Assembly (NCBI RefSeq): GCF_014695375.1
Contig: NZ_JACJOG010000050.1
Span: 1 to 64,000 of the forward strand
DNA from: Coleofasciculus sp. FACHB-T130
Lineage (GTDB): Bacteria; Cyanobacteriota; Cyanobacteriia; Cyanobacteriales; FACHB-T130
Direction of reading: 5' to 3'
Length of the DNA stretch: 64,000 nucleotides
Below the pieces are notes generated by a model, which saw only the letters and a program-made list of their open reading frames with translations, was not told where the DNA came from and made no database searches. Position numbers and translations under genes: made by a program. Of this stretch, positions 30,382 to 48,800 are shown piece after piece (within the stretch, counting starts at the first letter, position 1; each line of letters begins with the position of its first letter).

Positions 30382-30789
30382 AGTTGATGATTCCCAGTGG
30401 CGATGCCCCACAGAGGTTTGAATTGCTCAACACACGCCGTCGCGTCTGTTTTGTGAAGGCTGAGCCGGTGATGCTTGGTTGAGCGTTGTTGGTTGAGCGT
30501 TGATTGCTAACTTTGGTTTATTTTAGCTGTCGGACTCAGTCCGATTGCGATTCGCTTAAAAATTTGCCATTCTTTGATTCGTTGAACCTGAAAAAGTACA
30601 GGACAAAGTACAAGTGATTCCCGCTCTGTGCTGGATGCTATTTCCACGGCACCCATTTTCAGGACACCTCCAGTTCATCTTATTGAAGTGTGACGGTACA
30701 CTATGTAGGAGCAATCCCTCTGTGAATTGCCGCCCACTCAAAATACCTTTTGTTTCCCTGTTTAGAGCCAATTTATTCAGCCTCCTGCT
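30382..30789. promoter_or_regulatory. Divergent promoter region between potA and PBP2
   Basis: 408 bp between divergent starts. Near 30476-30510 a direct repeat GGTTGAGCGTTG occurs twice. Nothing else recognisable; no RNA or small gene seen. Confidence 0.5.
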
Positions 30790-32586: not shown

Positions 32587-32587
32587 A

Positions 32588-32644
32588 TTGTGAGGGGTTA
32601 GTTGTTAGTGTTTAGAGGAAAGGCTAACAACTGACTCCTCACAA
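32588..32644. terminator. Heptamer-like inverted repeat between PBP2 and DUF4335 genes
   Basis: TTGTGAGGGGTTAGTTGTTAG is matched at 19 of 21 positions by an inverted copy at 32624-32644, with a 15-nt loop. It sits between two convergent stops (32586 and 32683). A second tandem copy of the CAACTGACTCCTCA unit follows. It can act as a terminator in both directions, although no strong T-run is present. Confidence 0.6.
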
Positions 32645-32682
32645 CTGACTCCTCACAACTGGTTCCTGACTATTGACTGCTC

Positions 32683-34080
32683 TCAATTTCTCTGCAACGA
32701 CCTAACTTCGATGGTGCCGTTGGGTGCGAACACCACTCTGAATTGGGCGAGGGGTTCCTGGGGGACAGCGTCTGGCGAGTTGCTCGGCTGGAAGAGTTTA
32801 GGCAGGGGCGTTTCATCCTCGTAATCAAAGGCTGGTTGATTCTGTGGCTCGTAATCGGCGACGACACCGTCTTTGTTTACGGCGACACGGTATTGTAAGC
32901 TCCGTGGAAAACTGGGAGTGGCTTGCCAATTTTGCTTGAGTTGTTCGGAAAGCCGAGCTTCTAAACTCTCTATCTGAGCTGAGTCGGTAATTTCTGGACC
33001 GAGGCTGGGCTTTTCTTTATACCCATACCAGGGACTCACTTGGGGGACGCCTCGTCTAGTAAATACCACCCGGAACTGAGCCAGGGGTTCTTTGCTGATG
33101 TCGCTACCAGTGGCAGGGATATAGAGCAATTCTGGGAGCGGAGTTTCTTCTAAGCGATCGCGTGCGGCTGAGTTAACTGGCTTGTAACCCACCACAGCTC
33201 CGTCTTTCCCTACGCCCACCCGATAAACTAAGTCTTGCCGAAACTGGCGGCGGGTCGTCCACTTCTGATAAATGTTGTTTTGCAGTTTCCGTTGTAAGAA
33301 GTACAACTGGGTGGGATCGGTCAGCTCTGGTGCTGCTGTCACCAGGGTTTCCAAGTCGGTAGCTTCAGCGCTAGATGACGTGGGGCTTGCTGTCGGCTGC
33401 TCGGACGAGACAGGGCTAGCAGGCGTCGTTAAGCTGTTGGGCTGGGGCAAGGGATCTTTGAGGTTCTTGACTTCGGGAGGGGGAACCCTAGAAAACGCGA
33501 TCGCTGCCAACGCCAAACTCGTGACCCCAACTGCTGCTGGTGCGGCGCGTTGTGCCACCGGCACTTCAGCCTTCGCATAGCGTTTCGGAACCGGCGCGAT
33601 GGACAGCATGATGTCTGGCAGCGTGCGACCATCAGCCAGGAACTGATCCACCGCCTCCACTAAATCAAACAGCTGTACCGTTGTGATATCAACTTGTCTT
33701 GCTTGGAGGGTTGTGGCTGTCCCACTGGATGCGCCACTATGAGTCGAGTCTCCACCACTTCCCGGCGACTCAACAATTAACCGATGCAGATGGGCATCTA
33801 TTTTCTGAAACTGCACTAAACTCGGCTTGTCTTTCAGACTATGGGAGTGAGGCACCCCACTCAAGAATTCTTGAGCATAGTTGCTGGCTGCTGTCACCAG
33901 GCTTTCAAAAAAGTCACGTCCTCCCGTTAATGGCTTCTCCTTACCCGCAAAATGGCACTCAGCATTAACCAGGATAGACATTAAGGGTCGGGTGTCCACC
34001 TGACCAGCAGCTGTAGCATCGCTTAACCCTTCTAGGATCAGCGTGCAGTTAGGCAGACTGTACGGACGGCGAATAGTCAT
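32683..34080 (-). CDS. DUF4335 family protein
   Basis: Cyanobacterium-specific DUF4335 protein of 465 residues, function unknown. The N-terminal TIRRPYSLPNCTLILEGLSD is typical. A probable membrane helix lies near 190-210, rich in Ala/Leu/Val (AAPAAVGVTSLALAAIAF), followed by a Ser/Pro/Thr-rich linker. The C-terminal half contains a tandem duplication of two similar modules (RQDLVYRVGVGKDGAVVGY and RSLQYRVAVNKDGVVADYE). It is next to DUF3038 on the same strand, a pairing commonly seen in cyanobacteria. Confidence 0.85.
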   Translation of the reverse strand: MTIRRPYSLPNCTLILEGLSDATAAGQVDTRPLMSILVNAECHFAGKEKPLTGGRDFFESLVTAASNYAQEFLSGVPHSHSLKDKPSLVQFQKIDAHLHRLIVESPGSGGDSTHSGASSGTATTLQARQVDITTVQLFDLVEAVDQFLADGRTLPDIMLSIAPVPKRYAKAEVPVAQRAAPAAVGVTSLALAAIAFSRVPPPEVKNLKDPLPQPNSLTTPASPVSSEQPTASPTSSSAEATDLETLVTAAPELTDPTQLYFLQRKLQNNIYQKWTTRRQFRQDLVYRVGVGKDGAVVGYKPVNSAARDRLEETPLPELLYIPATGSDISKEPLAQFRVVFTRRGVPQVSPWYGYKEKPSLGPEITDSAQIESLEARLSEQLKQNWQATPSFPRSLQYRVAVNKDGVVADYEPQNQPAFDYEDETPLPKLFQPSNSPDAVPQEPLAQFRVVFAPNGTIEVRSLQRN

Positions 34081-34083
34081 TTT

Positions 34084-34165
34084 CAGTTGGTGATTGGTAA
34101 TTGGTAACTGGTAATTCGGGAAAAAACTAATAGGTAATTGGTAATTGGTAACTGGTAAGTCGGGA
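34084..34165. repeat. TTGGTAA heptamer repeats upstream of DUF4335
   Basis: Two groups of tandem heptamers (TTGGTGA/TTGGTAA/CTGGTAA), at about 34087-34112 and 34134-34160, sit between the DUF3038 and DUF4335 genes. This is another heptamer family of the STRR class. Confidence 0.85.
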
Positions 34166-34284
34166 AAAGTTTTAAGTTTTGAGGGTTGAGTTTTTAATTC
34201 AAGAACTTTCTTCTCGTCTTAAAACGCAACACCAATGCTCATCACTCTTATTCTTAATTACCGATTACTCCTTTTCTATGAAAG

Positions 34285-34911
34285 TTACACTTCTCCATCA
34301 AAAAGGCTGCTCCAAAATCTTTGCATTCCAGACGTTCCCGTACAAAATAGCAGCTCGCTTAACAGCTCAATAGCCAGATTGTTTAACTTCTCATCAGAGT
34401 TATAGGCGGCGACACCAGCGCGTCGTGGATTCATTCGGCTCCGGAAGTGAGCGCGGAACCTTTCTAAATACTCAGACAAGCGAAAATGATGTTCTAATGG
34501 CACCTGCTTGTCACGCAGTTGTTGATAAGCCAGTAGCAGCTGCCGGATCAACACGGTTAACCGCCGTGCTAGATGGCAGACTAGGATCACCATCGCTTTG
34601 GCTTCATCCAGGGTTAGCAAACGGCGTGTATAAGATCGTCGTAGCGGGTTGCTGCTTCGGATTCGCCAAAGGTGTACCCGATTTTTGATAATTCCCTGGA
34701 GTTCCAAATCCTTCGCCACTGTCAGCATTGCTTCAGACCCTCCCAATTCCAGGGCTTCTATTGCTAGTAGCATCAGGTCAATTTGTAGCCGAGTTCGACG
34801 CGGACACCCACTTGACGACGAAATCGGTGGGTCAGGGAGATTGTCTAAAATCAGCGGCATTGACTCTCGTGGAGGACTGTTTAATGGCATTACGCTCACA
34901 GAAAGATTCAT
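34285..34911 (-). CDS. DUF3038 family protein
   Basis: Soluble helical protein of 208 residues from the cyanobacterial DUF3038 family; function unknown. Signature segments are LQIDLMLLAIEALELGGSEAML and NRVHLWRIRSSNPLRR. The region HFRLSEYLERFRAHFRSRMN is family-typical. The paired DUF4335 gene lies downstream, about 200 bp away. Confidence 0.85.
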   Translation of the reverse strand: MNLSVSVMPLNSPPRESMPLILDNLPDPPISSSSGCPRRTRLQIDLMLLAIEALELGGSEAMLTVAKDLELQGIIKNRVHLWRIRSSNPLRRSYTRRLLTLDEAKAMVILVCHLARRLTVLIRQLLLAYQQLRDKQVPLEHHFRLSEYLERFRAHFRSRMNPRRAGVAAYNSDEKLNNLAIELLSELLFCTGTSGMQRFWSSLFDGEV

Positions 34912-35310
34912 TCCAAATAGCAGGACAGTTGAACTGGTTGATGGCTCGCACGGGCTACAACGAATTGCATATGGAAATCAATGACTTTTGACGGTTACAT
35001 TTGTGTCCATCTGCTATCCGATTATTTATATGCCCAGCTGGATTTTACTAAAATCAGGGTGTCGCGATCGGGATTGAAGCTTCGGGCAAGTGGATGATTT
35101 TGGAGGTGGTTGTACTTGAATCATATAGATACGACTACTCACACGCTTCAATAGCTGCCCGCTGGCTCTTGAGTGTTAGGAATGCTCCAAAACCGTGCAG
35201 CCTTCTAGTGTACGATTTTCCAGGTATATCCTTGCACATCCGGGGGAGATCCTGCCTCTGTGATGCAACGGATACCGAGTTTACCTACAACCCTCTTTTT
35301 ACGAGCTGCT
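34912..35310. other. 399-bp divergent spacer between DUF3038 and apt
   Basis: No coding sequence or RNA recognised. It must hold the promoters of both flanking genes. No clear -10/-35 pair or repeat was identified. Confidence 0.5.
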
Positions 35311-35823
35311 ATGGATCTCAAGTCTCTGATACGCGACATTGCAGACTTTCCTAAACCAGGAATTCTGTTTCGGGATATAACGACGCTACTGCGAGATCCG
35401 GAAGGACTGCGCTACACCATTGAAACCTTAACCGAAAAGTGCGCCCAGTTGTCTCCAGAGTACGTCGTTGGGATGGAGTCGCGGGGTTTTATTATTGGGG
35501 CACCTCTGGCATACAAACTGGGAGTTGGGTTTATCCCCGTCCGGAAGCCTGGAAAGTTACCAGGTGCTGTTCACACGGTTGAGTATGAATTAGAGTACGG
35601 GATGGATCGCCTAGAGATGCATCAAGATGCTCTACATCCCGGAAGCCGTGTTTTGATTGTGGACGATCTGATCGCGACGGGTGGAACGGCAACGGCAACG
35701 GCTGAGCTGGTACAGAAAATTGGCTGCACCTTAGTAGGATTTGGATTTATCATCGAGCTAAGAGATTTAGGTGGGCGTCAACGACTTCCTGATGTGCCAA
35801 TTGTGACGCTGGTTGAGTATTAG
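35311..35823 (+). CDS. apt: Adenine phosphoribosyltransferase
   Basis: Salvages adenine to AMP using PRPP. The 170-residue protein starts [16 protein letters not shown] and has the PRPP loop [17 protein letters not shown], plus [15 protein letters not shown] and VRKPGKLPG. The frame extends to 35260, but ATG 35311 gives the exact family N-terminus. Single-gene unit or first gene before the permease; spacing to the permease start at 35932 is about 110 bp. Confidence 0.96.
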
Positions 35824-35836
35824 GGAGCAACTGCTC

Positions 35837-35868
35837 ATGGCTAATTGCTAATTGCTAATGGAAAACAA
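35837..35868. repeat. GCTAATT heptamer repeat after apt
   Basis: Tandem GCTAATT-type heptamers (GGCTAATTGCTAATTGCTAATGG) follow apt. A related ATTAGCGATTAGCAA inverted segment occurs at 35880-35895. The upstream open frame of the next gene begins in this repeat. Confidence 0.8.
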
Positions 35869-35931
35869 GCTATTAAACAATTAGCGATTAGCAAGTTACA
35901 AAAATTTTGGCGATATGGGATTCTATATTTC

Positions 35932-36993
35932 ATGACTTCTACTAGAAATTCTTCAGGTCAGAATGGGTTAACAGCTAGTTTAAATTGGCTCAAAAGGCTG
36001 GTCACAAGTGAAACTTTCCTCTACGTGGCAAAACGGCTATTACAGGCAATTTTGACTTTGTTTCTAGCCTCGACGCTGAGTTTTGCAATTAGTCAGATGG
36101 CTCCGGGAGATTATTTAGATACTTTGAGGCAGAATCCCAAAATTTCCCCGGAACGAATTGAGGAACTCAGGCAACAGTTTGGTTTGGATAAACCAGCGAT
36201 TGAACAGTACCGACGGTGGCTGTGGCAGATTTTGCGCTATGGCAATTTTGGTACGAGTTTTGTCTATCAGCGTTCGGTGTCATCGCTGTTGTGGGAGCGT
36301 ATCCAAGCGACATTGGAACTCGCGATCGCATCGGTGATTCTGACGTGGGCGATCGCGATTCCACTGGGGATCGTCGGTGCAGTTAACCAAAATCGCACTA
36401 GCGATCGCCTCCTGCAAGTGCTGAGCTACGCGGGACAAGGGTTTCCCAGCTTCATCACGGCGCTGGTGTTGCTAATTTTCGCCCAGTACACTTCACCCCT
36501 ATTTCCAGTTGGTGGCAGAACCAGCATCAATCACGCTGATTTATCCTGGTTCGGTAAAATTTTGGATATCGGTTGGCACATGATTTTACCCACCCTAGCG
36601 CTGAGTGTCACCAGTTTTGCAGGTTTGCAGCGAATTACCAGGGGAGAATTACTCGATGTTCTCCGCCAAGACTATATCCAGACAGCTCGTGCCAAGGGAC
36701 TCCCCGAAGACCGGGTGATTTATGTTCATGCCCTCCGCAATGCGATTAATCCCCTAATAACGCTCTTAGGATTTGAGTTTGCCAGTTTGTTAAGTGGGGC
36801 ATTTATTGCCGAATTTTTCTTCAATTGGCCCGGATTAGGACGGTTGATTTTACAGGCAGTTACTATCCAAGATATCTACTTAGTAATGGCAAGTTTGATT
36901 ATGGGGGCAGTGATGCTGATTGTCGGCAATCTTATCGCTGATTTGTTGCTAAAAGTAGCCGATCCGAGAATTAAGTTGGAAAATCTTAAATGA
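35932..36993 (+). CDS. Oligopeptide/nickel-type ABC transporter permease (DppB-like)
   Basis: Membrane permease of 353 residues with about six helices. It has FAISQMAPGDYLD near the N-terminus, FGTSFVYQRSVSSLLWER, and the permease loop ARAKGLPEDRVIYVHALRNAINPL near the C-terminus, which are typical of DppB/OppB. No ATPase or binding-protein gene is adjacent, so the partner genes must be elsewhere. The frame is open from 35845 in repeat-derived sequence; ATG 35932 is preferred. Confidence 0.9.
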   Translation: MTSTRNSSGQNGLTASLNWLKRLVTSETFLYVAKRLLQAILTLFLASTLSFAISQMAPGDYLDTLRQNPKISPERIEELRQQFGLDKPAIEQYRRWLWQILRYGNFGTSFVYQRSVSSLLWERIQATLELAIASVILTWAIAIPLGIVGAVNQNRTSDRLLQVLSYAGQGFPSFITALVLLIFAQYTSPLFPVGGRTSINHADLSWFGKILDIGWHMILPTLALSVTSFAGLQRITRGELLDVLRQDYIQTARAKGLPEDRVIYVHALRNAINPLITLLGFEFASLLSGAFIAEFFFNWPGLGRLILQAVTIQDIYLVMASLIMGAVMLIVGNLIADLLLKVADPRIKLENLK

Positions 36994-37062
36994 GGAAATG
37001 GCTAATGGTTTCTTCCCGTCCAATTATCAATTACGGATTAGCCTATTATCTTTGCATTTTCT

Positions 37063-37356
37063 ATGTTTTCCCAAGTCTATTACCTAATTCGTTCGAGAGC
37101 TGATGGTCAATATCTTTTAGCTCAACCCGATACAAGTTCTTCAACCAGTAGCTCTGGCTATTTGTTGATGTTTGGCGAACATTTTGATGCGCTAAGCTAT
37201 CTCAACGCCCATGCCCCAGATGTTAGCGATCGCTTCGCTGTTGAGTCAATCTCTGGAAGCCAGGTAAAAGGGTTGCTGCAACGGTGGGGATTTAAGGGAA
37301 TTGGGATGGTTGAAGACCCACTATTACCCAAAATTCAGTTTTTATCGCCAAGTTAA
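37063..37356 (+). CDS. Small conserved cyanobacterial protein, unknown
   Basis: A 97-residue protein. I do not recognise a named family. It reads as a folded domain: SQVYYLIRSRADGQYLLAQPD, then LLMFGEHFDALSYLNAHAPD, then ESISGSQVKGLLQRWGF. No signal peptide, no membrane segment, no metal site. It starts about 70 bp after the permease on the same strand. Ribosome site weak. Confidence 0.6.
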   Translation: MFSQVYYLIRSRADGQYLLAQPDTSSSTSSSGYLLMFGEHFDALSYLNAHAPDVSDRFAVESISGSQVKGLLQRWGFKGIGMVEDPLLPKIQFLSPS

Positions 37357-37535
37357 GCCAAATTATTGACTTCTATTGCCTTTTCTAAAGATTTATTGCA
37401 AGTATACCTAGGTACAGATGTCAGAAGCTCCAAAATTTGAGCAAATAAGAGAGGTCGTTCAGGCAGTTGTTTCGTCTGATCCGATCAACAAATCTTAATA
37501 GTGCTAATTTCGACAAATTAGGAGAGAGGGACTCT

Positions 37536-37919
37536 ATGAAATCGATCCGTTTCAACCTGTCTGCTTGGGTACGTCCAGTGCGTATGGCGATCGCTGCTTG
37601 TTTTTGCGCTTTACTATTGTTCAGCTATGCAACTCCAGCCTACAGCAGCACAAAAACCCCCGCAGGATATAGCGGCACCAACAGTCGCCCCGGAGACGGA
37701 GAAGCCAATCTGACGAAGATTGAAGAGAAATCACAAAAGGCGGTTCTGAAAGACCCCTATTCGCTTAAAGAGACTCAGAAGGAAGCCAGCCAGGGTCTGA
37801 ATGAAATTCAAGGAGCCGCTGATGCTGACAAGATGAGTACCAACGAAAACTCGCAAGGCGTCCAATCAGTTGAACAAAAAGTTCAGAAGGCGCTGGAAGG
37901 CATTACAGGCAAAGACTAA
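37536..37919 (+). CDS. Small secreted protein, low-temperature-induced-like
   Basis: A 127-residue exported protein. A basic N-terminus is followed by a hydrophobic signal (MAIAACFCALLLFSYATPAYS, about residues 17-37) with a plausible AYS cleavage. The mature part is hydrophilic and helical, with repeated KIEEKSQKAVLKD and SVEQKVQKALEG units. It resembles a cyanobacterial group sometimes annotated as low-temperature-induced; I hold that name with low confidence. A strong ribosome site (AGGAGAGAGGG) precedes ATG 37536, so the upstream in-frame extension to 37467 is unlikely. Confidence 0.75.
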   Translation: MKSIRFNLSAWVRPVRMAIAACFCALLLFSYATPAYSSTKTPAGYSGTNSRPGDGEANLTKIEEKSQKAVLKDPYSLKETQKEASQGLNEIQGAADADKMSTNENSQGVQSVEQKVQKALEGITGKD

Positions 37920-38028
37920 GGAGCCAGTATTTGCTCAAGAGTGAGCGCCCTAGTATCTGCTGAGTGCGGATGCAGGGTCTCATCATCAGGGCAACTCCGC
38001 AGGGGTTGTTCTTGATGTTATATAGGGC

Positions 38029-38054
38029 AGGCAGGAGTCTGCCTTGTTTTTTTT
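38029..38054 (+). terminator. Intrinsic terminator after small secreted protein
   Basis: AGGCAG-gagt-CTGCCT stem (38029-38044) followed by TG and a run of eight T. It lies 110 bp after the small secreted gene and before the convergent helicase gene. Confidence 0.85.
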
Positions 38055-38109
38055 AGGCTGGCGATGCTGAAACGCTGGCTCGTTGGAGCGTGTAACGGCA
38101 ATAAATGCC

Positions 38110-41100
38110 CTAGAACTGGAGTTCTCCTGTGGTTTGGGGTCTACGTTCAGTCTTCAAGGCGTGGATATGGGTAAATTTCCATGCATCCTGAACGCTGACA
38201 ACAATGAATCCTAAAGCCTCTAGGTCAGTTTGGAATTGAGGGCGATCGCTAAATCTTGAAGTTGCTTCGATAATATGAAGCTGACCATCCAGTTTCAGAG
38301 TGCGGTTCGCCTCCCGCAGGTAATCGGTGAAGTTCGCTCCCATCAGTGACAGGCAGAAAATCGCTACATCAAGCCTTTGATCGTCAAGGGGAACATGAGC
38401 CATGTCGCAGGCAATAACTTCCTGATTCACAGCAACATGGTCAAAGCTGTAAACTGTATGGCGATCTGAAACCGCTTCAGCCAGCTTCGCCTGACCACAA
38501 CCGAAATCACCGATAGTGTAGCCGCTACGTTGTTGGCACCAGCGAATCATCTCTTCATAAGGGATGACCGCCCAATTTTTCCTTGACTCAGTGTATAAAG
38601 TATGATAATTCGACCACTCCTCTGGATTCTCCTGTAGGCGATGGTGAGTAGTTTCGCTTCGGGTTTGGTTCCAGTGGCGGTTCATGGCGGAAAAGTCGCC
38701 GTAACGCTGCAACCGCCGCTGCACGTCTGCTGGGTCGTTATCGGGAATCGGAATTACAATCTTCGGACGGGCGATGACTTGGACGCCTGTTTCTAGCTTC
38801 TCTAGCCAAGCGATTATATCTTGATAGGCTTGGGCAGGCGATCGCAAGTATCCCTCTGGAACTACACCATCAACGGCAGCATCGGCGATCGACTTTTTGA
38901 ATCGCAATCGCTGCATTTTCGAGTCGCACCACGACCAACGTTCGCCATTGACATGGGCGTAAGTTAGGGGAATGACTATTGTTACTGGGTTTTGTTGCCC
39001 TTGGCGGTAGATGCGACCGATTAGTTGCTCGAATTCGGCGTGAGTCCACGGCAGGACGTTAATGATTAGGCGATTGCACGCTTGCTGTAAACCATCAACG
39101 CCAGTTGCGATCGCGCTTGAACCGATGAGAACATCGATGTTGCCTTCCTTGAATTCTTGAAGAATCTCACGCCGCGAATCGAATTCGACTTCGCCTGTGT
39201 AGAAGCCAACCTTCCAGCCGTCGTCTTCGAGTGCGTCTCTAAGTAGCTTGTCAATTCCTTGGACGTAATGGGTATAAATCAGGGTTTTCGGTTTGATTTG
39301 CTCTCGAATAACGGGTAAACGGGCGCGGGTGAGGATTTGCTCAAGTGCGAGGTGGGTGCCTTTGCGACCCAGTGCGCGAATTTCGTCGATGAATTCACTA
39401 CAGTCTACTGGGATAGACAAATCCTTGGGTTCTCCGAGTTGTTGTTTATAATCGGGCATCCAACGTATCCCCAGTGTCACGAGTCGCTGGTGGAGTTTCA
39501 TGCAGTTGGCAATGGTTTGGTGGATGTCGAGTTCGTCGTGGGCGACTCCTGTCACAAGTTCGACTAGACTTTTACCTTCTTGCAAATTATTAATTACTGG
39601 TGTTGCGGACATCCCAATGATGTGTAGATTTGGGTTGCGATCGCTTGCGGCGGTGATGAGTGCGCTTACCAGTTGCTTGCGCCGCGATATGTTCTCGACT
39701 TGGCGTTGTTTTGTGTAGTGGATTTCATCAATAACGATGAAATCGATTAACTCACTTTCCACAAATGAGCGCACCCAATCAGCGGAGTCTGGCTGCTGGA
39801 ACTTCTCATAGTTCACAATGATGTAACGATGAGCATTTAGATTCAGCGCCGCACCTAACCCAGTTTCGTCACCGACGGCATTTGCCCAGTCAGGTGTAAA
39901 GGTTTTGGTAGCGATCGCGCTATCTGGGAAAATGTTGAGGATCGCTTTTTTCCAACCATCAACAACGCTGTTAGGACAGCAAATAAGGGTTAGATGGGCG
40001 TTAATGACGCGACTGGCGAGGACGGCTGAGAGGGTTTTGCCTGCACCTGTGCCTGACCAGTTGCCGACTCGTTTCTTGTCGCGTACCTGAACGGCGGCGA
40101 GTCGCTGCATGAGGTTGGGTTCTGCTATTTTGCCGTTGATACGGAAGTTGTAGCCAGTTGGGATGGGGAGATTCTTGGCTCGATGATATTCGTCTAGGAA
40201 TTCGGTTTTGACTCTTTCGGCGTAGCTGTCGCCTGTGTAGCTTTGAGCCTGCGCTAGGGCTGCTGCTTCATCACGAAAGACGTGCTTCCAAATCTTTGCT
40301 TTTGCCGATGCGATGAGGAATTCGACAGCTTCTTCATCGGCTGAGGATACGACGGAGTGATCTAAGGATGCCAGGACTTCCCGCGTCTGGACGACTGGAA
40401 GCTCAAGGTCGTTCGCTTCTTCGGATGGTTCAATCGTCTCGTCAATTTGGTCGTCAAAATTGTCCTTAGAGGTTACATCTTTATTAGAGATGTCATCATT
40501 GACGCTAGTTTCATGTGCTTCGAGAGTTAGCTGCTTATCTTGCAGGAATTTATCAACGATTGACCGTTCACTATTGACGAACTTCTCAATCTCTTCTTTT
40601 GGGAAGCGTCCAGTAGCAAGAGCTTTCACGAAGCCCTTACCTTTGCCTTGAGTCTGAAGCAGTCCACTTTGCTGGAAAATCGTGTAGAGATCCGCTGCAC
40701 TGAAAGTCTCAAGGTGGTTTACTAAGGAACCAATAAAACCACGGAGGGCTTCTATTGTCCATCCTTTATTACAAGCAGGGCATCCTCTTCCAGTTGTCCG
40801 GTTAGCAAGTGTTGCCTCCCATTCGTGGGAAGGGTCGATCGCACAACGCCACCAAGCCTTCTTACTCGATTTGGCTGTCACCTCCTCTGGAGTGAGCGTA
40901 CCATTTTTTAAAGGATGCCACTCTTTAGCAATTTCAGGGTAAAGTCTTGCGAGAGAATTGACGACAGTTGGTCTTCTGCCAGAACAAAACGGGCATCCAC
41001 TACCGTTGACTCTACTCTTAATTACAGCTTCCCATTCGTGATTAGGATCATTGGAACATCCCCACCAAGCTTTACTATGTGAGCCTGATACTACGTGGTC

Positions 41101-42249
41101 TGGAGTAAGCATCCCGTTTTTGGTTGGATGCCATTGCTTGGCAATCTCTGGGTAAAGACTTGTCAATGAATTAGTTACGGATGAGCTTTTACCAGCACAA
41201 AAAGGACATCCAATCCTCTGTCCAGCTCTAGTATTGGGCGCTGCTTGCCATTGATGATCAGTACCATTGGGACATTGCCACCAAACTTTCTTATTTGAAC
41301 CTGCTACTACTTGATCTGGGGTAAGCTTCTCGTTTTTGCTTGGATGCCATTGCTTGGCAAGTTCGGGGTAAAGACTTGACAGAGAGTTGGTGACTGACAC
41401 TTTTTGACCAGCGCAAAAGGGACATCCTGTACCCCTTACTCGGTTATCAATTACAGCTTTCCATTCATGATTTTTGTCGTTGAGACATTGCCACCAAACT
41501 TTGTAACCTGAACCTGCTACCACCTGATCCGGAGTAAGTTTTTCGTTCTTGGTTGGATGCCATTGCTTAGCAATTTCAGGGTAGAGACTTGCTAGAGAGT
41601 TCGTATCAGATACTGCTCTACCAGAACAAAAAGGACACCCACTTCCTTTTACTCTGTTAACGATAGAAGCTTTCCACTCATGTAGAAGCGGGTTGGAACA
41701 AACCCACCAGACTTTTGTTTCCGAACCTGCTACTACTTGGTCTGGGGTAAGCCTCCCGTTTTTGGTCGAATTCCATTGCTTGGCAAGTTCAGGGTAAAGA
41801 CTTGATAGAGAGTTGGTAAGTGATGCTTTTTGACCAGCACAAAAGGGACATCCTGTTCCCTTTACTCTATGGGAAACAGACGCTTCCCATTCGTGATCAG
41901 AACCATAGAAACATTTCCACCATACTTTCTTGTGTGAGCCTGCTACTATCTGATCTGGAGTGAGTGTACTGTTCTTTGCTGGATGCCACTGCTTGGCAAG
42001 TTCAGGGTAAAGACTTGCCAGAGAGTTGGTAACTGAAGGATTACGACCAGCACAACAGGGGCATCCTGCTCCTAATCTGGCTCGATTCGCAATTACTGCT
42101 TCCCATTCGTGATCAGAACCCTGAGGACATTTCCACCATGCTCTCTTGTTTGAGCCTGCTAACATCTTGTCTGGGGTGAGGTCGCCGTTTTTCGTCGGAT
42201 GCCACTGCGCGGCTATTTGGGGATGAGTAATCGATAGCGGGTCTTTCAT
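38110..42249 (-). CDS. Zinc-ribbon array, SF2/SNF2-like helicase and Rrp8-like methyltransferase fusion
   Basis: A 1379-residue protein. Residues about 5-490 are seven tandem ~69-residue zinc ribbons of the DUF4379 type, each with a WHPTKN-like start, WWxC, HEW and GCPxC (one Cys, one His and two Cys as probable ligands). A linker with acidic stretches follows (to ~690). The helicase core has Walker A GTGAGKT near 735, DEIH near 838, SATP, and motif VI GRIYRQGQ near 1080, so it is an SF2/SNF2-like translocase. The C-terminal ~200 residues have GDFGCGQAKLAE near 1250, YSFDHVA, ACDMAHVPLDDQRLDVAIFC and LSLMGANFTDYLREANR, a close match to the Rrp8 rRNA m1A methyltransferase family. No signal or membrane segment. 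Substrate unknown. See findings. Confidence 0.88.
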   Translation of the reverse strand: MKDPLSITHPQIAAQWHPTKNGDLTPDKMLAGSNKRAWWKCPQGSDHEWEAVIANRARLGAGCPCCAGRNPSVTNSLASLYPELAKQWHPAKNSTLTPDQIVAGSHKKVWWKCFYGSDHEWEASVSHRVKGTGCPFCAGQKASLTNSLSSLYPELAKQWNSTKNGRLTPDQVVAGSETKVWWVCSNPLLHEWKASIVNRVKGSGCPFCSGRAVSDTNSLASLYPEIAKQWHPTKNEKLTPDQVVAGSGYKVWWQCLNDKNHEWKAVIDNRVRGTGCPFCAGQKVSVTNSLSSLYPELAKQWHPSKNEKLTPDQVVAGSNKKVWWQCPNGTDHQWQAAPNTRAGQRIGCPFCAGKSSSVTNSLTSLYPEIAKQWHPTKNGMLTPDHVVSGSHSKAWWGCSNDPNHEWEAVIKSRVNGSGCPFCSGRRPTVVNSLARLYPEIAKEWHPLKNGTLTPEEVTAKSSKKAWWRCAIDPSHEWEATLANRTTGRGCPACNKGWTIEALRGFIGSLVNHLETFSAADLYTIFQQSGLLQTQGKGKGFVKALATGRFPKEEIEKFVNSERSIVDKFLQDKQLTLEAHETSVNDDISNKDVTSKDNFDDQIDETIEPSEEANDLELPVVQTREVLASLDHSVVSSADEEAVEFLIASAKAKIWKHVFRDEAAALAQAQSYTGDSYAERVKTEFLDEYHRAKNLPIPTGYNFRINGKIAEPNLMQRLAAVQVRDKKRVGNWSGTGAGKTLSAVLASRVINAHLTLICCPNSVVDGWKKAILNIFPDSAIATKTFTPDWANAVGDETGLGAALNLNAHRYIIVNYEKFQQPDSADWVRSFVESELIDFIVIDEIHYTKQRQVENISRRKQLVSALITAASDRNPNLHIIGMSATPVINNLQEGKSLVELVTGVAHDELDIHQTIANCMKLHQRLVTLGIRWMPDYKQQLGEPKDLSIPVDCSEFIDEIRALGRKGTHLALEQILTRARLPVIREQIKPKTLIYTHYVQGIDKLLRDALEDDGWKVGFYTGEVEFDSRREILQEFKEGNIDVLIGSSAIATGVDGLQQACNRLIINVLPWTHAEFEQLIGRIYRQGQQNPVTIVIPLTYAHVNGERWSWCDSKMQRLRFKKSIADAAVDGVVPEGYLRSPAQAYQDIIAWLEKLETGVQVIARPKIVIPIPDNDPADVQRRLQRYGDFSAMNRHWNQTRSETTHHRLQENPEEWSNYHTLYTESRKNWAVIPYEEMIRWCQQRSGYTIGDFGCGQAKLAEAVSDRHTVYSFDHVAVNQEVIACDMAHVPLDDQRLDVAIFCLSLMGANFTDYLREANRTLKLDGQLHIIEATSRFSDRPQFQTDLEALGFIVVSVQDAWKFTHIHALKTERRPQTTGELQF

Positions 42250-42329
42250 ATTATGAACTTTAATATTTAAAATCTAAAATATTATAATTAATACGGATTT
42301 TGAATTAAATAAAAACAGGATAAAAATTG
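42250..42329. promoter_or_regulatory. AT-rich divergent promoter region
   Basis: About 80 bp of very AT-rich DNA separate the start of the 1379-residue fusion gene (minus) from the 172-residue orphan (plus). It includes TATTATAATTAAT, which could serve as a -10 element in either direction. Co-regulation of the two genes is plausible but unproved. Confidence 0.5.
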
Positions 42330-42848
42330 ATGAGCGAATTATTTTCACGACCCGACACTGATCGTTTTTTGCAAAAACGTCGAAATGAGATGCTTTCAGA
42401 AATAAACTCTGAACAAGTCAAGAGCGTGGATTACTTTGATAACAAGTACAAGGTTAAGATGCTCCGACTCAGAAACGAGAAACCCGAAGTAAAAAAACAG
42501 GATCAATTTTTTGTTTACTCCATTCCATTTGAGGGTGAACCAGAATTATTTTACTACACACCACCTACTTATGAGTACAGTACAATAAAGGGTCAGACAG
42601 AAATTAGTAACGGGGAAGTCCTGCTAAAATACCCCAAAAATATTAGTGTTGATATTGACTCGCTCTTCAAAGCAGATTTGCATGAACTTAAAGATTGTAT
42701 TAAGGCGATAGCTCCCAGTGTTGAGCGATTTAACTCTTCTATTAGTAGTGAAGTTTTGAATATAATAGGAAAACTCAGTCAAAAAGACTGTGAAGATCAG
42801 AATTATCTAGAAAAATTGAAATTAGGCTTAAATCAAGAAGATATTTAA
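42330..42848 (+). CDS. Unknown AT-rich orphan protein, divergent to helicase fusion
   Basis: A 172-residue hydrophilic protein that I do not recognise. It begins SELFSRPDTDRFLQKRRNEMLSE, has a central beta-rich part (QFFVYSIPFEGEPELFYYTPP), and a helical C-terminus (LNIIGKLSQKDCEDQNYLEK). No catalytic motif, membrane segment or cysteine pair. Its AT content is clearly higher than that of the surrounding genes, which suggests recent acquisition. The in-frame TTG at 42327 just precedes ATG 42330. It is a possible partner of the helicase fusion only because of position. Confidence 0.65.
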   Translation: MSELFSRPDTDRFLQKRRNEMLSEINSEQVKSVDYFDNKYKVKMLRLRNEKPEVKKQDQFFVYSIPFEGEPELFYYTPPTYEYSTIKGQTEISNGEVLLKYPKNISVDIDSLFKADLHELKDCIKAIAPSVERFNSSISSEVLNIIGKLSQKDCEDQNYLEKLKLGLNQEDI

Positions 42849-43027
42849 TCATAGTTGCTTTTAAAAATAGCATAAAAAATTTATGGGTAAGGCAAGCAGA
42901 CACGCGATCGCTCTCCTGATTTAGTATTCCCATCCACAGCTAAAAAATTCTATCTAGCCGTACCAAAATTACTGGCTGACATTTAAACACCAGACGCGAT
43001 CGCAACCCAAACCGATTTGATTTCCCC

Positions 43028-43070
43028 AACCCGTTTTAACGGGTTTAAGCTTTGAGCCAGAAATTTATTT
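43028..43070. repeat. REP-like end of RAYT element, left copy
   Basis: A 43-bp sequence that begins with the palindrome AACCCGTTTTAACGGGTT (8-bp stem). It matches the inverse complement of 43569-43611 at 41 of 43 positions. Together they bracket the transposase gene. Confidence 0.9.
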
Positions 43071-43092
43071 CTGCGCTCACTCACTGCGCTCA

Positions 43093-43518
43093 CTACGCTC
43101 CCCTTCCTGGCTCATCATCCCGTTCCAAAGCTGAAATAACCGTTCCTTGTAAATGATGTTGCTTTTGATTATTCACATAAGCCTTCGCTTCATCCAATTG
43201 CTTACCTCCTAATGAAAACACTCCATATCCATGTTGCCAGCTAAACGCTAAACCAGAAGCTAATGGAGTATGGTTCAAATGATAAGCACTACTTCCTTTG
43301 ATGGTTTTTACGAAATCAGCAATTGATAACTTTGGTGGAATGGAAGCCACAATATGAATATGATCTTCGATACCACCAATTGCATGAATAATACAACCAA
43401 TTGCATCAGCTTTGCCGATAATATAACTGTAAAGTTCAGACTCTCTTTCTGGGGTAATTAGAGGTTGACGAGATTCCGTTGCCCAAATGAGATGGTAGTA
43501 GGTGCGCCAAAATGACAT
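43093..43518 (-). CDS. REP-associated tyrosine transposase (RAYT/IS200-like)
   Basis: Small single-strand DNA transposase, 141 residues. The HUH motif HIH is at His53/His55 in EDHIHIVASIP, and the catalytic Tyr is Tyr114 in AKAYVNNQKQHH. The N-terminal TYYHLIWATESRQPL is family-typical. The start ATG 43518 is chosen because the MSFWRTYYHLIW start matches Y1 transposases; the frame is open to 43587. It is flanked by inverted REP-like sequences, as expected for RAYT elements. It looks intact. Confidence 0.9.
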   Translation of the reverse strand: MSFWRTYYHLIWATESRQPLITPERESELYSYIIGKADAIGCIIHAIGGIEDHIHIVASIPPKLSIADFVKTIKGSSAYHLNHTPLASGLAFSWQHGYGVFSLGGKQLDEAKAYVNNQKQHHLQGTVISALERDDEPGRGA

Positions 43519-43568
43519 GAGTTTAAAAGTTCGGATTGAAAGTGGAGATCGCGTAGATTGTCGCCGGG

Positions 43569-43611
43569 AAATAAATTTCCGGCTCAAAGCTAAAACCCGT
43601 TAAAACGGGTT
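43569..43611. repeat. REP-like end of RAYT element, right copy
   Basis: Inverted counterpart of the 43-bp sequence at 43028-43070, ending in AACCCGTTAAAACGGGTT. It lies immediately upstream of the transposase gene. Confidence 0.9.
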
Positions 43612-43699
43612 AAAGAGAATGGTGAGAAGAAAGCGAGATCGCCTGATTTTGCTTCAAAGTCAAAAAAGCGATCGCTAAACTCTTCTGTATAAAGGAAAA

Positions 43700-43770
43700 A
43701 GCGGGTGGCGAGAATCGAACTCGCATCATCAGCTTGGAAGGCTGAGGTTTTACCACTAAACTACACCCGC
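43700..43770 (-). tRNA. tRNA-Gly (anticodon TCC)
   Basis: Reading the minus strand: acceptor GCGGGTG pairs with CACCCGC, the anticodon loop is CTTCCAA giving TCC, the T-arm is GCGAG-TTCGATT-CTCGC, and the discriminator is T, normal for glycine. CCA is not encoded. A T-run follows on the same strand. Confidence 0.95.
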
Positions 43771-43850
43771 AAATTGAGGTATGGTCAAACCATAACTAGA
43801 TTACTATACCACAATTTTTCATAGCTTGAGTAGGGGAGGCGTGCATTTTT

Positions 43851-45077
43851 TCACTGGGAGAGAGGAGAAATTCGGATAGAGACTTCCAGCAAGCTGTCAA
43901 CGGCTCCACCTCCCATGTAAGCGGGTTGAAATCTCCAGCCTTGAATTAGCTCATTGACAAACTGCGAATCGTTTAAATTTCCGCTTCCTTGCAGCACTCG
44001 CTGAACTGACGGTTTGCCCGTGTTATCAATCAACAATAAAACTTCCAAGACGATAGGCTGGTCGGGAGCTTGCCCAGTTAGCAGCGGATAATCAAGGTCG
44101 GGAATTTGTTTCTGCTGTTGCTGCGGTACGGCTAATTGGTTCGGCTCATCAGTGCCAGCGTTACCAGAGCGGACATTGAATAAAGTTGCCACAACGCCTC
44201 TACCTTGGGCTGCGGGCGATGGTGCGGGCGATGGTGCGGGCGATGGTGCGCTTTGTGCCTCCTCAGCAGGCGGTGCGGGTGCAATGGGAGCTGGAGCTGG
44301 TGGGGCTGGGCTTGCCTGTACGGGAGGAGCTGGCGGAGGGGTGACAGGAGCTGGGGATGGTTCGACGGGTTGGGACGATGATGGCTGCGGTTGAGATGGC
44401 GGTGCAGGTGCGGCGGTTCCTGCATCTTGGGAGGATGACCCCAAGGGACGACCCGTTTCAGGGGGTTGCTGCGGCACCAATGGCGGGCGCGGAGCAGGTG
44501 TAGGGATGATGGGTCTGGTCGCAACAACATCAGAGTTCGGCTGCTGTCTTTGCGGGGTAGAAGGCGAGTTAGCGGTAGGGTTTTGCGCTTGAGGGAAAGG
44601 ATTGAGACGGATTCTGAAAGAGCGTTGAATTCTCGGTTGAGAATTTACAGGAGGATTTTCCTGAGACTGCGCGGGTATCGGCTGCTGTACAGAGCTTCTA
44701 CCTGGAACGTTAAAATTGCGATCGCTCTCTTGTCTTTGTTGGGGAGTCGCCGCTTGTGGCTCTAACCTCTCTTCGGAATAGGGAACGGTGGTAATCAAGT
44801 CAACAGGAATGGGTTCCGTAGCCACATCGACGCTGGCAGATCCCATGATTACCCGCTGCAACATCCACATCCCCAATACATGGACAATTACAGAAATTAG
44901 AGTGTAAATACTCCACAGCGTGGATGATGTAGACCGATTCCGGGCATCGACTCGCTGCTGGGAGGCGATCGCATCTGGCTTCTCTAAGGGAGGTGGAGCC
45001 GATGCACTAACGAGATGTAAGTGCCGAGTCGGAGGACTCTGAGCCGGATCGTTGGGGCGCTGGTTTGGTAGTGCCAT
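43851..45077 (-). CDS. TonB-like protein with proline-rich linker
   Basis: A 408-residue protein with a single transmembrane helix near 54-77 (LWSIYTLISVIVHVLGMWML). A long Pro/Ala/Gln-rich periplasmic linker runs to about 300, including PAPSPAPSPAP encoded by three tandem 12-bp units near 44217-44252. The C-terminal ~90 residues are a TonB-type domain (PIVLEVLLLIDNTGKPSVQRVL and LIQGWRFQPAYMGG). TonB transmits energy to outer-membrane receptors. No exbB/exbD lies adjacent. ATG 45077 is preferred; the two-residue extension to TTG 45083 is unlikely. Confidence 0.88.
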   Translation of the reverse strand: MALPNQRPNDPAQSPPTRHLHLVSASAPPPLEKPDAIASQQRVDARNRSTSSTLWSIYTLISVIVHVLGMWMLQRVIMGSASVDVATEPIPVDLITTVPYSEERLEPQAATPQQRQESDRNFNVPGRSSVQQPIPAQSQENPPVNSQPRIQRSFRIRLNPFPQAQNPTANSPSTPQRQQPNSDVVATRPIIPTPAPRPPLVPQQPPETGRPLGSSSQDAGTAAPAPPSQPQPSSSQPVEPSPAPVTPPPAPPVQASPAPPAPAPIAPAPPAEEAQSAPSPAPSPAPSPAAQGRGVVATLFNVRSGNAGTDEPNQLAVPQQQQKQIPDLDYPLLTGQAPDQPIVLEVLLLIDNTGKPSVQRVLQGSGNLNDSQFVNELIQGWRFQPAYMGGGAVDSLLEVSIRISPLSQ

Positions 45078-45120
45078 TCTCAAAACTTGAAGGACTCTTA
45101 TTGTTAGAAACAGTAGACGT

Positions 45121-45801
45121 TCACCTAAATCCGCTACGTTCCAGAAAATTTGTCAGAAAAAGAATGAACAGAGACAGCGAACTGAGAATAACCACCAAAA
45201 TCAAGGCGATGTTGTCGCGTCCCGACTGAACGGCTTCGTAGATTGCCATTGGCATCGTTTGCGTGACACCGGGAATATTCCCCGCAATCATTAAAGTTGC
45301 GCCAAATTCTCCTAACGCGCGGGCAAAACTGAGGACAATTCCTGCAAGGATACCTTTCCAGGCTAAAGGCAACCAAACGCGCCAGAGGGTTTGCAGATTC
45401 GATTGACCCAATGTCGCAGCGGCTTGTAAGTAAACGGGATCAACACTTTCTAAAGCTGCCTTTGTGGTTTTTACCATTAGCGGTAACGCCATAATGCTTG
45501 CCGCTAAGACTGCGCCTTGCCAGGTAAAAATGGGCGTCCAACCAGTCGCTTCGTAGAGAGGGCGTCCGATTAACCCCTGGCGTCCAAAGAGAACCAGCAG
45601 ATAAAATCCCACCACCGTCGGCGGCAAAATTAGGGGCAGCGTGACGATAGCATCCACCCAGTTTCGACCGGGAAAGCGGTAACGTGCTAACAGGTAGCCC
45701 AGCAGTCCCCCCGCGATCGCAACAAAGACGGTGGAAATCAGCGCCACCCACAACGATAAGCGCAAAGCGGAGAACAGTGCTGAGGACTGAGGACTCAGCA
45801 C
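45121..45801 (-). CDS. modB: Molybdate ABC transporter permease, ModB-like
   Basis: Membrane permease of 226 residues with about five helices. The conserved loop is YLQAAATLGQSNLQTLWRVWLPLA, followed by LSFARALGEFGATLMIAGNIPGVTQTMPMAIYE, which is diagnostic of ModB/CysT-like molybdate permeases. The start is a GTG at 45801 inside TGAGGAC heptamers, which encode residues such as SPQSSAL. No modA or modC is adjacent. It begins 6 bp after the cyaC stop codon, so it may be translated from the cyaC message. Confidence 0.9.
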   Translation of the reverse strand: MLSPQSSALFSALRLSLWVALISTVFVAIAGGLLGYLLARYRFPGRNWVDAIVTLPLILPPTVVGFYLLVLFGRQGLIGRPLYEATGWTPIFTWQGAVLAASIMALPLMVKTTKAALESVDPVYLQAAATLGQSNLQTLWRVWLPLAWKGILAGIVLSFARALGEFGATLMIAGNIPGVTQTMPMAIYEAVQSGRDNIALILVVILSSLSLFILFLTNFLERSGFR

Positions 45802-45802
45802 T
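45776..45802 (-). promoter_or_regulatory. Hairpin covering the modB start codon
   Basis: AGTGCTGAG (45776-45784) and CTCAGCACT (45794-45802) form a perfect 9-bp stem across a 9-nt loop of the heptamer. The stem contains the modB GTG at 45799-45801 and sits just after the cyaC stop. If formed in the mRNA, it would occlude the modB start. Confidence 0.6.
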
Positions 45803-45806
45803 TTAT

Positions 45807-48800
45807 TCAGTCCCCAGCACTTTCTTTAAGTTCAACCGCAAAGGTGAGAACGGTTTCATCGATGCCTTTGAGCTTGAGTGGGCTGCACTTGGTCATTTCC
45901 TGCTCGTCCAGGTAATCGGCAACGGCAGCAGAAACCAGGATGCAATTCGGCTCGGCTGCTTCTTGAAGGCGAGAGGCAATATTCACGCTAGGGCCGATAG
46001 CCGTGTAATCCGACCGTTGATTGCCTCCGAACATTCCCACCACGGCAGTTCCTTGGTGAATGCCGCAGCGGAACTGGACGGGTGCGCGATCGCTCGTGCC
46101 AACAATGCCTGCCTCCAACCATTTCTGATTGAGTTGCTCCAAAGAAGCGTGCATTTGCCGCGCCGCACCGATCGCCCGTCGTACCTGCTCGTTGGGTGTC
46201 AGTTCCTCTGGGGCACCAAACAACGCTAAAATTGCATCCCCCATAAACTTATCTACCGTACCACCGTTATCAAACACGGCTTTGGTCATTGCTTCCAGAT
46301 ATTCATTCAGCAACTCAGCCACTCGTCGCGCTCGCAAGGTATTTGCCAAACTGGTAAAACCCACGATGTCGCTAAATAAAACCGTAACCAACCTAGGTTC
46401 CGGACTCAAATCCAGCTTCAGTTCGCCTTTTGCCGCCTTCTGCACCATCGTTGGAGGTAAAAAGCGCTTCAGCACCGACTCAGTCAGGTAAGAATTCAGC
46501 TCCACCACCCGGCGCTCATTTTCCTTGAGCGCTAGCAAATTGTGGACTAACGCTAACAATTCCCGGTCGTTAAATGGCTTAGCCAGATAAGCATCGGCTC
46601 CCCTCTCAGTGCCTTCAATGCGAGTATCTTCGTCTACTTTGGCAGTGAGCAAAATAATCGGCGTTCCCTTGAGTTCTGGGTTCTCTCGGAGCATCCGAAT
46701 CATATCCAAACCGGACACAAAGGGCATCATCAAATCCGTCACGATCAGATCGGGTCGCCTTTCCTTAGCGACGGCGAATCCTTCGTTGCCGTTGCGAGCC
46801 ATGCAAACTTGATAGCCATCATTTAGCAAAATCCGAGACACATAAGCTCGTAAATCTGGATTGTCGTCCACCACTAAGACGGTGTGGATGACGGAGGAAT
46901 TGACGCTGGAGGCGGATAGTGGTTGCGACTCCGTTGGTAGTGAATTCAGAGAAGATGCTGCTTCATCCTGTCTCAAAAGTTCCCAGTCTCCAGTTTCTTC
47001 TTCCACCTCCAAATCTGCCAGTTCCACAGCAGCGCGATTGGATTGGACTTCAGTTGGCACTTCCAACACCTGATCCAGCGGTAGGTGTGCGGTTCCAGTT
47101 TGCAGCCAAACGGTAAAGGTGCTGCCTTCTCGGTAAACCGACTCGACAGAAATTTGACCGCCGTGGAGTTCCACCAATTCTTTCACCAGCGCTAAACCCA
47201 AGCCACTGCCTTCATAGGAGCGGTTGACTGACCCTTCCGCTTGACGGAAGCGCTCGAACAGATGGGGGATTTGTTCCGGGCGAATGCCAATGCCAGTGTC
47301 TGAAACCTGGATTCGGACGTGATCTCCAGCGGGTTGCACTAGCACGGCTATCGTACCTCCCGCTTCGGTAAATTTCATGGCATTGGAGAGAAGGTTGTAG
47401 AGTACCTTGTCAAATCTTTCTAAATCTAAATAAACCGGCTGACAGGGTTTCATTTCGAGTGTCAGCTGCAAGCCTTTTTTCTCGCAGTAGGGGCGAAAAG
47501 CTTCGACAATGGTTTCGATAAATTCTATTAAGTTACAAGGACGGAAACTGGCTTGCATTCGACCGGCGTCGAGTCGTTGGATATCCAGCAGTTGATTGAC
47601 CAGTCGCAGTAAGCGGCGGGAGTTGCGTAGGGCGATCGCAGCTTGGTCGTAGGGCATATCCTGATGCTGATTGACCGCTGACTCTAGCGGCCCTAGCATC
47701 AGAGTCAGCGGCGTGCGAAATTCGTGAGAAACGTTCTGGAAAAACTCGGTTTTCTGCCGGTCTAATTCCAGTAACCGCTCCGCCTGCTGCCGAGTTTTTT
47801 GATACAGTCGGGACTGCGTGACTGCGATCGCTGCCTGTGCTGCCACCGCCTGCGCTAATTCAACCTCTGAAGCGTGCCAGCGGCGAGGTCGGTTCGTTTG
47901 GCGCAAGGTAATGCTACCAATAATCTGACCATCGGAGAGTAACGGTACCACCAACAGCGCCCGCGCCGGACTCCGCAGAGGGAGATCGAACCCGTTCATT
48001 TCGGGGTTCCGATCCAGATCGTGGACTGCCACGGGGTTTTGTGTATTTAGCAGCTGTTGCAACACCGGATTTCCGGCAATTGGGACAACCGAGTGGGGTA
48101 ATTGAGGATTCTTCGCTTGCAGCGAAGTATGATTGCCGAGATGCGGAGCTAATTGCATTTTGGTGACAAATGCTTCGCTCGTACTGGAGAAAATCGGGTC
48201 CTCGCTCACCGATGTATCCAGCACCAGGCTTTCTGCCCCGTCATACAAGCCCACGCACTGAACAAACTCATCCTCTCTCCGCCACAGCGACAGGGCACAG
48301 CCATCCACTTGCAAGGCTTGTCCCAACTGTTGCGTAATTGCTGCAAAGATGTCCTGCGGGTCAAGGCTAGAGCGGATTGCCGTTGTAATCGTATTGACAA
48401 GGGCCTCTCTTTGTGCAAGTCGAGAAACCTGTTCGTAAGCCCGCGCCTGGGAAAGAGCCAGAGCCGCTTGATCCGCCACCATCACCACCAACTGAATCTC
48501 ATCATCCTGCCAGACGCGCGGCTGTCCGCACTGGTGCAGCGCCAGAACTGCCATCAATTCCAGTTGGCAATACAGCGGCACCACCAAGCTAGAGTGAATA
48601 TCTGCCTGTCGCATTGCCTCTAGGCGTTGCCTAATTACAGGGGTATCGCCTGGAAGTCGCTCATCTGTTTCGACATCATTAATGACTTCTACATCGTGCG
48701 TTTCCCACACTAACTGACTGAGAACTGAGGACTGAAGACTCAAGACTGAGTGGGGATCTTCATTGTGCTGCCCAGTCTCGCTCTCTCCCAAAGAAGACTC

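Follow-up and report, generated by a model that had tools for sequence, protein, structure and literature searches.

An Rrp8-like methyltransferase joined to an SNF2-type motor and an exchangeable N-terminal repeat array in bacteria and viral contigs

Restriction-modification (RM) is built on machines that combine a translocase with a methyltransferase and have exchangeable target readers. Among the described systems, type ISP enzymes couple a superfamily 2 (SF2) motor to a methyltransferase (PMC7049714), and DarB of phage P1 is a known SNF2-methylase dyad that protects injected DNA (PMC5512222). The Rrp8 enzymes characterised so far make N1-methyladenine (m1A) in ribosomal RNA (rRNA), and the G209R form of yeast Rrp8 is catalytically dead (PMC6085284). 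Here we describe a gene of Coleofasciculus sp. FACHB-T130 (genome 6.2 Mb) at 38110-42249 on the reverse strand of the 64,000-nucleotide stretch of contig NZ_JACJOG010000050.1 that was analysed (the window), a single intact open frame of 1379 codons in which seven zinc modules, an adaptor, an SNF2 motor and an Rrp8-like methyltransferase follow one another. The architecture is real and not a product of chance; it recurs at more than 20 loci and hence is not unique to this strain. The lineage appears to be undescribed, combining a methyltransferase related to a eukaryotic ribosome-biogenesis enzyme with a repeat array, one of at least five types, as its putative reader, and an earlier reading of the sequence alone (the sequence-only reading), which knew of no account of this fusion, agrees with the open-access literature, in which we found no paper dealing with a bacterial Rrp8 or with the fusion, most subscription papers lying outside that search.

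The methyltransferase and motor domains

The C-terminal domain (residues 1175-1379; 38113-38727, reverse strand) is assigned to the Rrp8 methyltransferase family with strong support from both sequence and predicted fold. Residues 1177-1369 match Methyltransf_8 (PF05148) with an E-value of 8.6e-50 and 170.1 bits against a cut-off of 27, and the sole PDB sequence that this domain alone matched at E ≤ 0.1 is human Rrp8/nucleomethylin (2zfu, E 1.1e-34), a match that takes in the helical segment upstream of the S-adenosylmethionine (SAM) motif. In an AlphaFold2 model of residues 497-1379, built from 25 homologues (mean predicted local distance difference test score, pLDDT, 74.6; predicted template modelling score 0.59), the first structural match is again 2zfu, with Z 29.2, a root mean square deviation of 1.8 Å and 36% identity over 200 aligned residues. 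The SAM motif DFGCG (within 38479-38508) and the LSLMGxN motif (here LSLMGAN, within 38302-38358) are invariant or nearly so among 25-28 homologues, CDMA lies within 38386-38412, and the protein contains no [DNS]PP[YFWH] (NPPY-type) motif. The placement with Rrp8 made by the sequence-only reading is thereby borne out, and profile, PDB match and fold together rule out an unrelated methyltransferase family. The likeness to the eukaryotic 25S/28S rRNA m1A methyltransferase, which covers PF05148, the 2zfu fold, DFGCG, CDMA, LSLMGxN and the upstream helical segment, extends over the 205 C-terminal residues, whereas the present protein is bacterial or viral and fused to an SNF2 motor and a putative recognition array. 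All seven strong PF05148 matches in 386 cyanobacterial genomes (E ≤ 1.1e-41, the next at 3.5e-11) fall in the present family, and a sample of 246 genomes from the planctomycete phylum gave a single match, that of a relative, L039; the Rrp8-like domain is therefore confined to this architecture in the sampled cyanobacteria and planctomycetes.

Upstream of the methyltransferase lies the motor (residues 712-1130; 38860-40116, reverse strand), which has the complete helicase core that had been claimed for it, namely Walker A GTGAGKT (residues 733-739; 40033-40053), DEIH (841-844; 39718-39729), SATP (881-884; 39598-39609) and motif VI GRIYRQGQ (1078-1085; 38995-39018). Pfam gives SF2 helicase signatures on the whole protein and SNF2-rel_dom at 17.6 bits, under its cut-off of 24.9. 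The top structural matches of the modelled motor are SNF2-family remodellers (INO80, Z 22.1; ISW1, 21.3; SNF2h, 20.3), the defence helicase ZorD (8qy7) scores Z 18.3, and the best matches among viral predicted structures are phage SNF2/HepA helicases. With its SF2 motifs intact and an SNF2-like fold, the domain classes as an SNF2-type SF2 ATPase. The motor predicted earlier thus stands, while the claim that it unwinds nucleic acid is doubtful, because its closest folds are translocases of the INO80, ISW1 and SNF2h type, and SNF2-family translocases on double-stranded DNA generally translocate rather than unwind.

These two domains bear in opposite directions on the proposal that the protein is an RNA methyltransferase, which would introduce m1A or another base methylation into rRNA, tRNA or phage RNA, the arrays selecting the RNA and the motor acting as a remodeller of RNA or ribonucleoprotein. 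Its methyltransferase has rRNA m1A enzymes as its sole characterised relatives (PMC6085284), and some viral homologues stand near tRNA or translation-related genes; the motor, however, is SNF2-like and not of the DEAD-box kind (SNF2 entries at Z 22-18, eIF4A at rank 49 with Z 18.1), and some 5% of genomes is too narrow a range for a housekeeping rRNA enzyme. Taken with the properties of the arrays described below, we regard this proposal as rather unlikely.

Array modules and array exchange

The putative recognition array (40765-42216, reverse strand) consists of seven DUF4379 (PF14311) modules, with a whole-protein E-value of 1.3e-146 and every unit at E ≤ 8.6e-21. The number of repeats is that given by the sequence-only reading, while the period is 71-72 residues and not about 69. 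Modules 1 to 7 occupy 42043-42216, 41830-42000, 41617-41787, 41404-41574, 41188-41361, 40975-41145 and 40765-40932. The zinc ligands C47/H53/C68/C71 are invariant across 46 distinct repeats, and an AlphaFold2 model of two adjoining modules (pLDDT 91.8) matches solely the DUF4379 domains of trypanosomatid mitoribosomes, with Z up to 11.7. About ten positions vary among the 46 modules (29, 40, 41, 46, 49, 58, 60, 61, 64 and 66); a two-residue code like that of TALE proteins was considered and rejected, since the variable positions number about ten instead of two, and it was not possible to read a code from them. The array is followed by the adaptor (residues 497-711; 40117-40761, reverse strand), recognised from alignments and the AlphaFold2 model as a helical domain and then an acidic linker of low model confidence.

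A comparison with a sister species (genome G403) reveals that the N-terminus is replaceable. The gene stands there at the same locus (L177), flanked by the same neighbours on both sides, and window DNA aligns to it by blastn at 91.3% nucleotide identity over 29942-40764 and at 92.8% over 42903-50631, the segment 40764-42903 having no counterpart. From residue 496 through 1379 the two proteins share 84% amino acid identity, whereas residues 1-495, with all seven ribbons, are replaced in G403 by five unrelated repeats of about 65 residues without a Pfam match, so that the breakpoint coincides with the boundary between the last ribbon and the adaptor. Beside the break, the adaptor and motor have a synonymous divergence (dS) of 0.49-0.50; the values are 0.13-0.23 for the methyltransferase and for residues 640-711 and 1131-1180, and 0.03-0.22 for the flanking genes. 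Exchange therefore seems to drag adjoining coding sequence along. Both motor and methyltransferase are under purifying selection, as their ratios of nonsynonymous to synonymous divergence (dN/dS) of 0.18-0.27 show.

Nine further close pairs display the same contrast, with arrays 50-86% identical, the rest 82-98% identical, and changing repeat numbers. In three of them array dS reaches 1.4-1.75 against 0.22-0.44 in the rest, which we read as module exchange, although the high values may partly stem from pairing non-orthologous repeats; the youngest pair has a dN/dS of 0.91 for the array and 0.14 for the remainder. A tree of the core places the array change at L177 among ribbon proteins with support of 100/99, and its viral members mix INT and DUF723-type arrays; most array types otherwise follow the core lineages, therefore replacement of a whole type is rarer than turnover of modules. 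The array types found so far are DUF4379 (4-14 copies), helix-turn-helix (HTH) plus DUF4379, INT_rpt, DUF723-type and the new 65-residue repeat, and behind every one of them alignments and the AlphaFold2 model retain the helical adaptor domain. At the level of sequence comparison the anatomy is thus established, as are the conserved state of the two catalytic domains and the exchange of an N-terminal cassette in front of a conserved adaptor-motor-methyltransferase core, and by analogy this exchange resembles the evolution of target-recognition domains in restriction enzymes.

The modules themselves have relatives in other proteins. DUF4379 occurs with domains like restriction endonucleases (MTES_1575/DUF559-like), with NUMOD-like and with MUG113/T5orf172/GIY-YIG domains, as well as in phage HNH/endonuclease families, and INT_rpt is named for integrases. 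DUF4379-array proteins, either stand-alone or carrying endonuclease-like, NUMOD or GIY-YIG domains, share the tandem zinc modules (with identity reaching 49% in the best segment) but have neither motor nor methyltransferase. That the arrays are common to DNA endonucleases and recombinase-linked proteins argues against the RNA proposal, for which fast, recombining arrays would also be unexpected given a conserved RNA target, although the solved DUF4379 domains do reside in mitoribosomes. As for the new repeat of about 65 residues (L177:8251-9270, YWxxFxNVxxELxxFIxxxGTPGVMPTxxEL...HGGFxxVAxRLGL), it was also observed on an Allocoleopsis plasmid (L200:4305-5813), as part of an HTH protein whose gene lies downstream of a recombinase gene, and a search of viral contigs with this array returned chance-like matches only.

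Distribution, decay and genomic neighbours

Relatives of full or nearly full length occur in cyanobacteria (L038, L041, L124, L125, L177-L185), in Planctomycetota (L039, L040, L191, L192), on plasmids of Crinalium and Rhodococcus (L120-L122) and in IMG/VR contigs (L155-L161), one of which spans 378,848 bases. L155 lies not far from a gene for the terminase large subunit (1.9e-105); the viral status of the other contigs is the collection's own classification. Of 391 genomes of the cyanobacterial order, 19 (about 5%) have the whole core or part of it, and around the planctomycete G672 eight of 248 genomes were positive, four with the motor alone. No match was found in 296 genomes from the phylum of L082 (Eggerthellaceae), in a search without positive control, and the Rhodococcus plasmids do carry the gene; 247 genomes from the phylum of L106 (Sphingomonadales), likewise without positive control, gave none either. 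The Coleofasciculus genome itself carries a paralogue on contig 22 (L123:7399-10734) that shares 44% identity across residues 587-1367 and has integrase-type repeats instead of ribbons; these were recognised by motif, and the INT_rpt profile matches its relatives L126 and L127. Degraded copies are L128, L186, L188 (with an inserted transposase), L189 and L190 (with an in-frame gap). In planctomycetes we also observed relatives with integrase-repeat arrays and motor but without the methyltransferase (L193-L196), and on a viral contig (L163:375-7453) eight tRNA genes near a 159-residue remnant of the Rrp8-like domain.

Copies in viral contigs, in a prophage region with terminase and on plasmids raise the idea of a protective modification like that of DarB, in which the enzyme would mark the DNA of its carrier element (phage, plasmid or island) against host restriction or competitors. 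The P1 precedent (PMC5512222) and the lack of a nuclease in the protein suit it, yet many copies are chromosomal without an obvious surrounding element (the window, L041, L178), the methyltransferase is not of DarB's EcoKI/TaqI-like adenine family and lacks the NPPY motif, and changing target arrays are harder to explain under blanket protection, hence we consider it unlikely.

On another viral contig (L158:5855-12590) an intact mnmA is followed by a GIY-YIG/NUMOD3 gene, a small open reading frame (ORF) and the motor-methyltransferase gene, with a second, truncated mnmA at the end, an arrangement suggestive of a tandem mnmA duplicate into which a cassette was inserted. It might be taken to mean that the gene is part of a homing or insertion element, in which the arrays would direct the protein to the site of insertion while the motor or methyltransferase assists or silences the element, as would the T5orf172 gene 7 bp downstream at L161 and the array modules, which are those of homing endonucleases. 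Chromosomal copies, however, have no such endonuclease beside them, and orthologues stay at one locus while the array alone changes, which is the opposite of a moving element with a constant target; this explanation is very improbable.

Defence genes occur near several members. MzaC (1.9e-234), MzaD (2.7e-31) and a C5 cytosine methylase stand beside a gene remnant of 240 residues (L189:9241-15120), and L186, in another genus, holds a longer remnant with neighbours similar to those of L189 (response regulator, dehydrogenase), so that the site may be a turnover hotspot. A Cas10/Cmr2 (type III-B CRISPR) gene lies directly downstream in two planctomycetes (L191:13278-15428, L192:13396-15402), an Mrr_cat neighbour occurs in L179 only, and a STAND-like TPR protein is encoded near L155. 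HEPN-like genes of different families lie near L039, L127 and L128, the last assigned by motif only; HEPN as a constant toxin partner was rejected, as the upstream genes vary and unrelated proteins of 130-140 residues occupy the place at L041 and L123. In the window, a divergent 173-residue ORF (42327-42848, forward strand) with a partial PADLOC match to the candidate PDC-S54 (4.8e-16) is probably not a constant partner, since it has a single weak relative in 167 genomes of the order plus plasmids and is absent from the sister species. Farther on, 43093-43587 holds an IS200-like/REP-associated tyrosine transposase gene, also present in G403, which is flanked by inverted copies (43028-43071 and 43568-43611) of a 44-bp palindrome (AACCCGTTTTAACGGGTT...) and adjoined by a sequence resembling, as judged by eye, a tRNA-Gly gene (43703-43773, reverse strand).

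Proposed mechanism and comparison with known systems

Our preferred explanation, to which we give about an even chance of being right, is an RM-like and apparently nuclease-free conflict enzyme whose array targets an SNF2 translocase-methyltransferase. The N-terminal array of small modules would recognise a particular nucleic-acid sequence, probably in double-stranded DNA; the conserved helical adaptor would relay array binding and release the motor, which would hydrolyse ATP, track along the duplex and remodel DNA or strip bound proteins; and the Rrp8-like domain would methylate a base of the engaged nucleic acid, most likely adenine. A new target would then result whenever recombination, duplication of modules or replacement of the whole array altered it. 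If m1A chemistry is kept, the pairing face would be modified and, speculatively, the motor might be needed to expose the base. We infer the DNA substrate, the sequence-specific reading, the methylated atom and the role in defence or in mobile-element competition; DNA is a fairly likely choice over RNA because the motor is of SNF2 type, its best folds being those of translocases that act on nucleosomal DNA, the modules are common to endonucleases and integrases, and the 65-residue repeat recurs in an HTH protein beside a recombinase.

The patchy occurrence of the family, its presence on plasmids and in viral contigs, its decayed copies and its defence neighbours are suggestive of a role in conflict. 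The sequence-only reading had proposed nucleic-acid scanning and methylation, possibly directed against phages, and this inference gains support from array swapping, from the patchy, plasmid- and virus-borne distribution, from repeated decay and from the few defence neighbours. Several points nonetheless weigh against our explanation, besides the possible inflation of array dS and the lineage-bound array types mentioned above: Rrp8 chemistry is known on rRNA and not on DNA (PMC6085284), solved DUF4379 structures come only from trypanosomatid mitoribosomes, and the defence neighbours are few, varied and counted as raw occurrences. Furthermore, Pfam finds no nuclease family in the protein, and the loci compared have neither a constant adjacent nuclease nor a constant partner gene, therefore a restriction outcome would be left without an effector. 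A quite improbable solution is a nuclease-free immune enzyme with an invader-tuned array, whose motor would open or strip DNA and whose methyl group on the Watson-Crick face (e.g., N1-methyladenine) would block replication or transcription of the invader; if true, it would be, to our knowledge, the first sequence-targeted lesion-forming methyltransferase in immunity, with array exchange as retargeting.

In the contest of cells with mobile DNA, the protein probably serves one side as a hitherto undescribed weapon or shield. Confirmation of the enzyme we propose would add a new class of methylation-based conflict enzyme and a bacterial and viral context for Rrp8, and the 46 zinc modules, with some ten variable positions on a fixed scaffold, would offer natural arrays on which a nucleic-acid reading code could be tested.

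Identity with a known defence system was rejected, the best PADLOC match being PbeA (4.7e-16) over the motor only (733-1052) and no NCBIfam equivalog cut-off being reached. Zorya ZorD and other SNF2 defence helicases share the motor fold, but ZorD has an Mrr-like nuclease, and the PADLOC and NCBIfam matches to the present protein span the generic motor only. DarB-type methylase-SNF2 dyads of phages and plasmids likewise unite an SNF2 ATPase and a methyltransferase in one protein on mobile elements, whereas DarB has EcoKI/TaqI-like DNA adenine methylases and LPD domains, and the present protein has PF05148 and a weak match to the DarB family. Type ISP (LlaGI, LlaBIII) and type I RM enzymes share with it target recognition, an SF2 translocase and a methyltransferase in one polypeptide; they differ in that the present protein is nuclease-free, carries an Rrp8-like methyltransferase without NPPY, would read by an N-terminal repeat array and has another domain order. 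Without a nuclease and an NPPY-type adenine methylase, it belongs to neither the type ISP nor the DarB class, and what it has in common with type I and type ISP RM is the swapping of the target-reading part between alleles of one locus, as seen between the window and L177 and in the nine further pairs.

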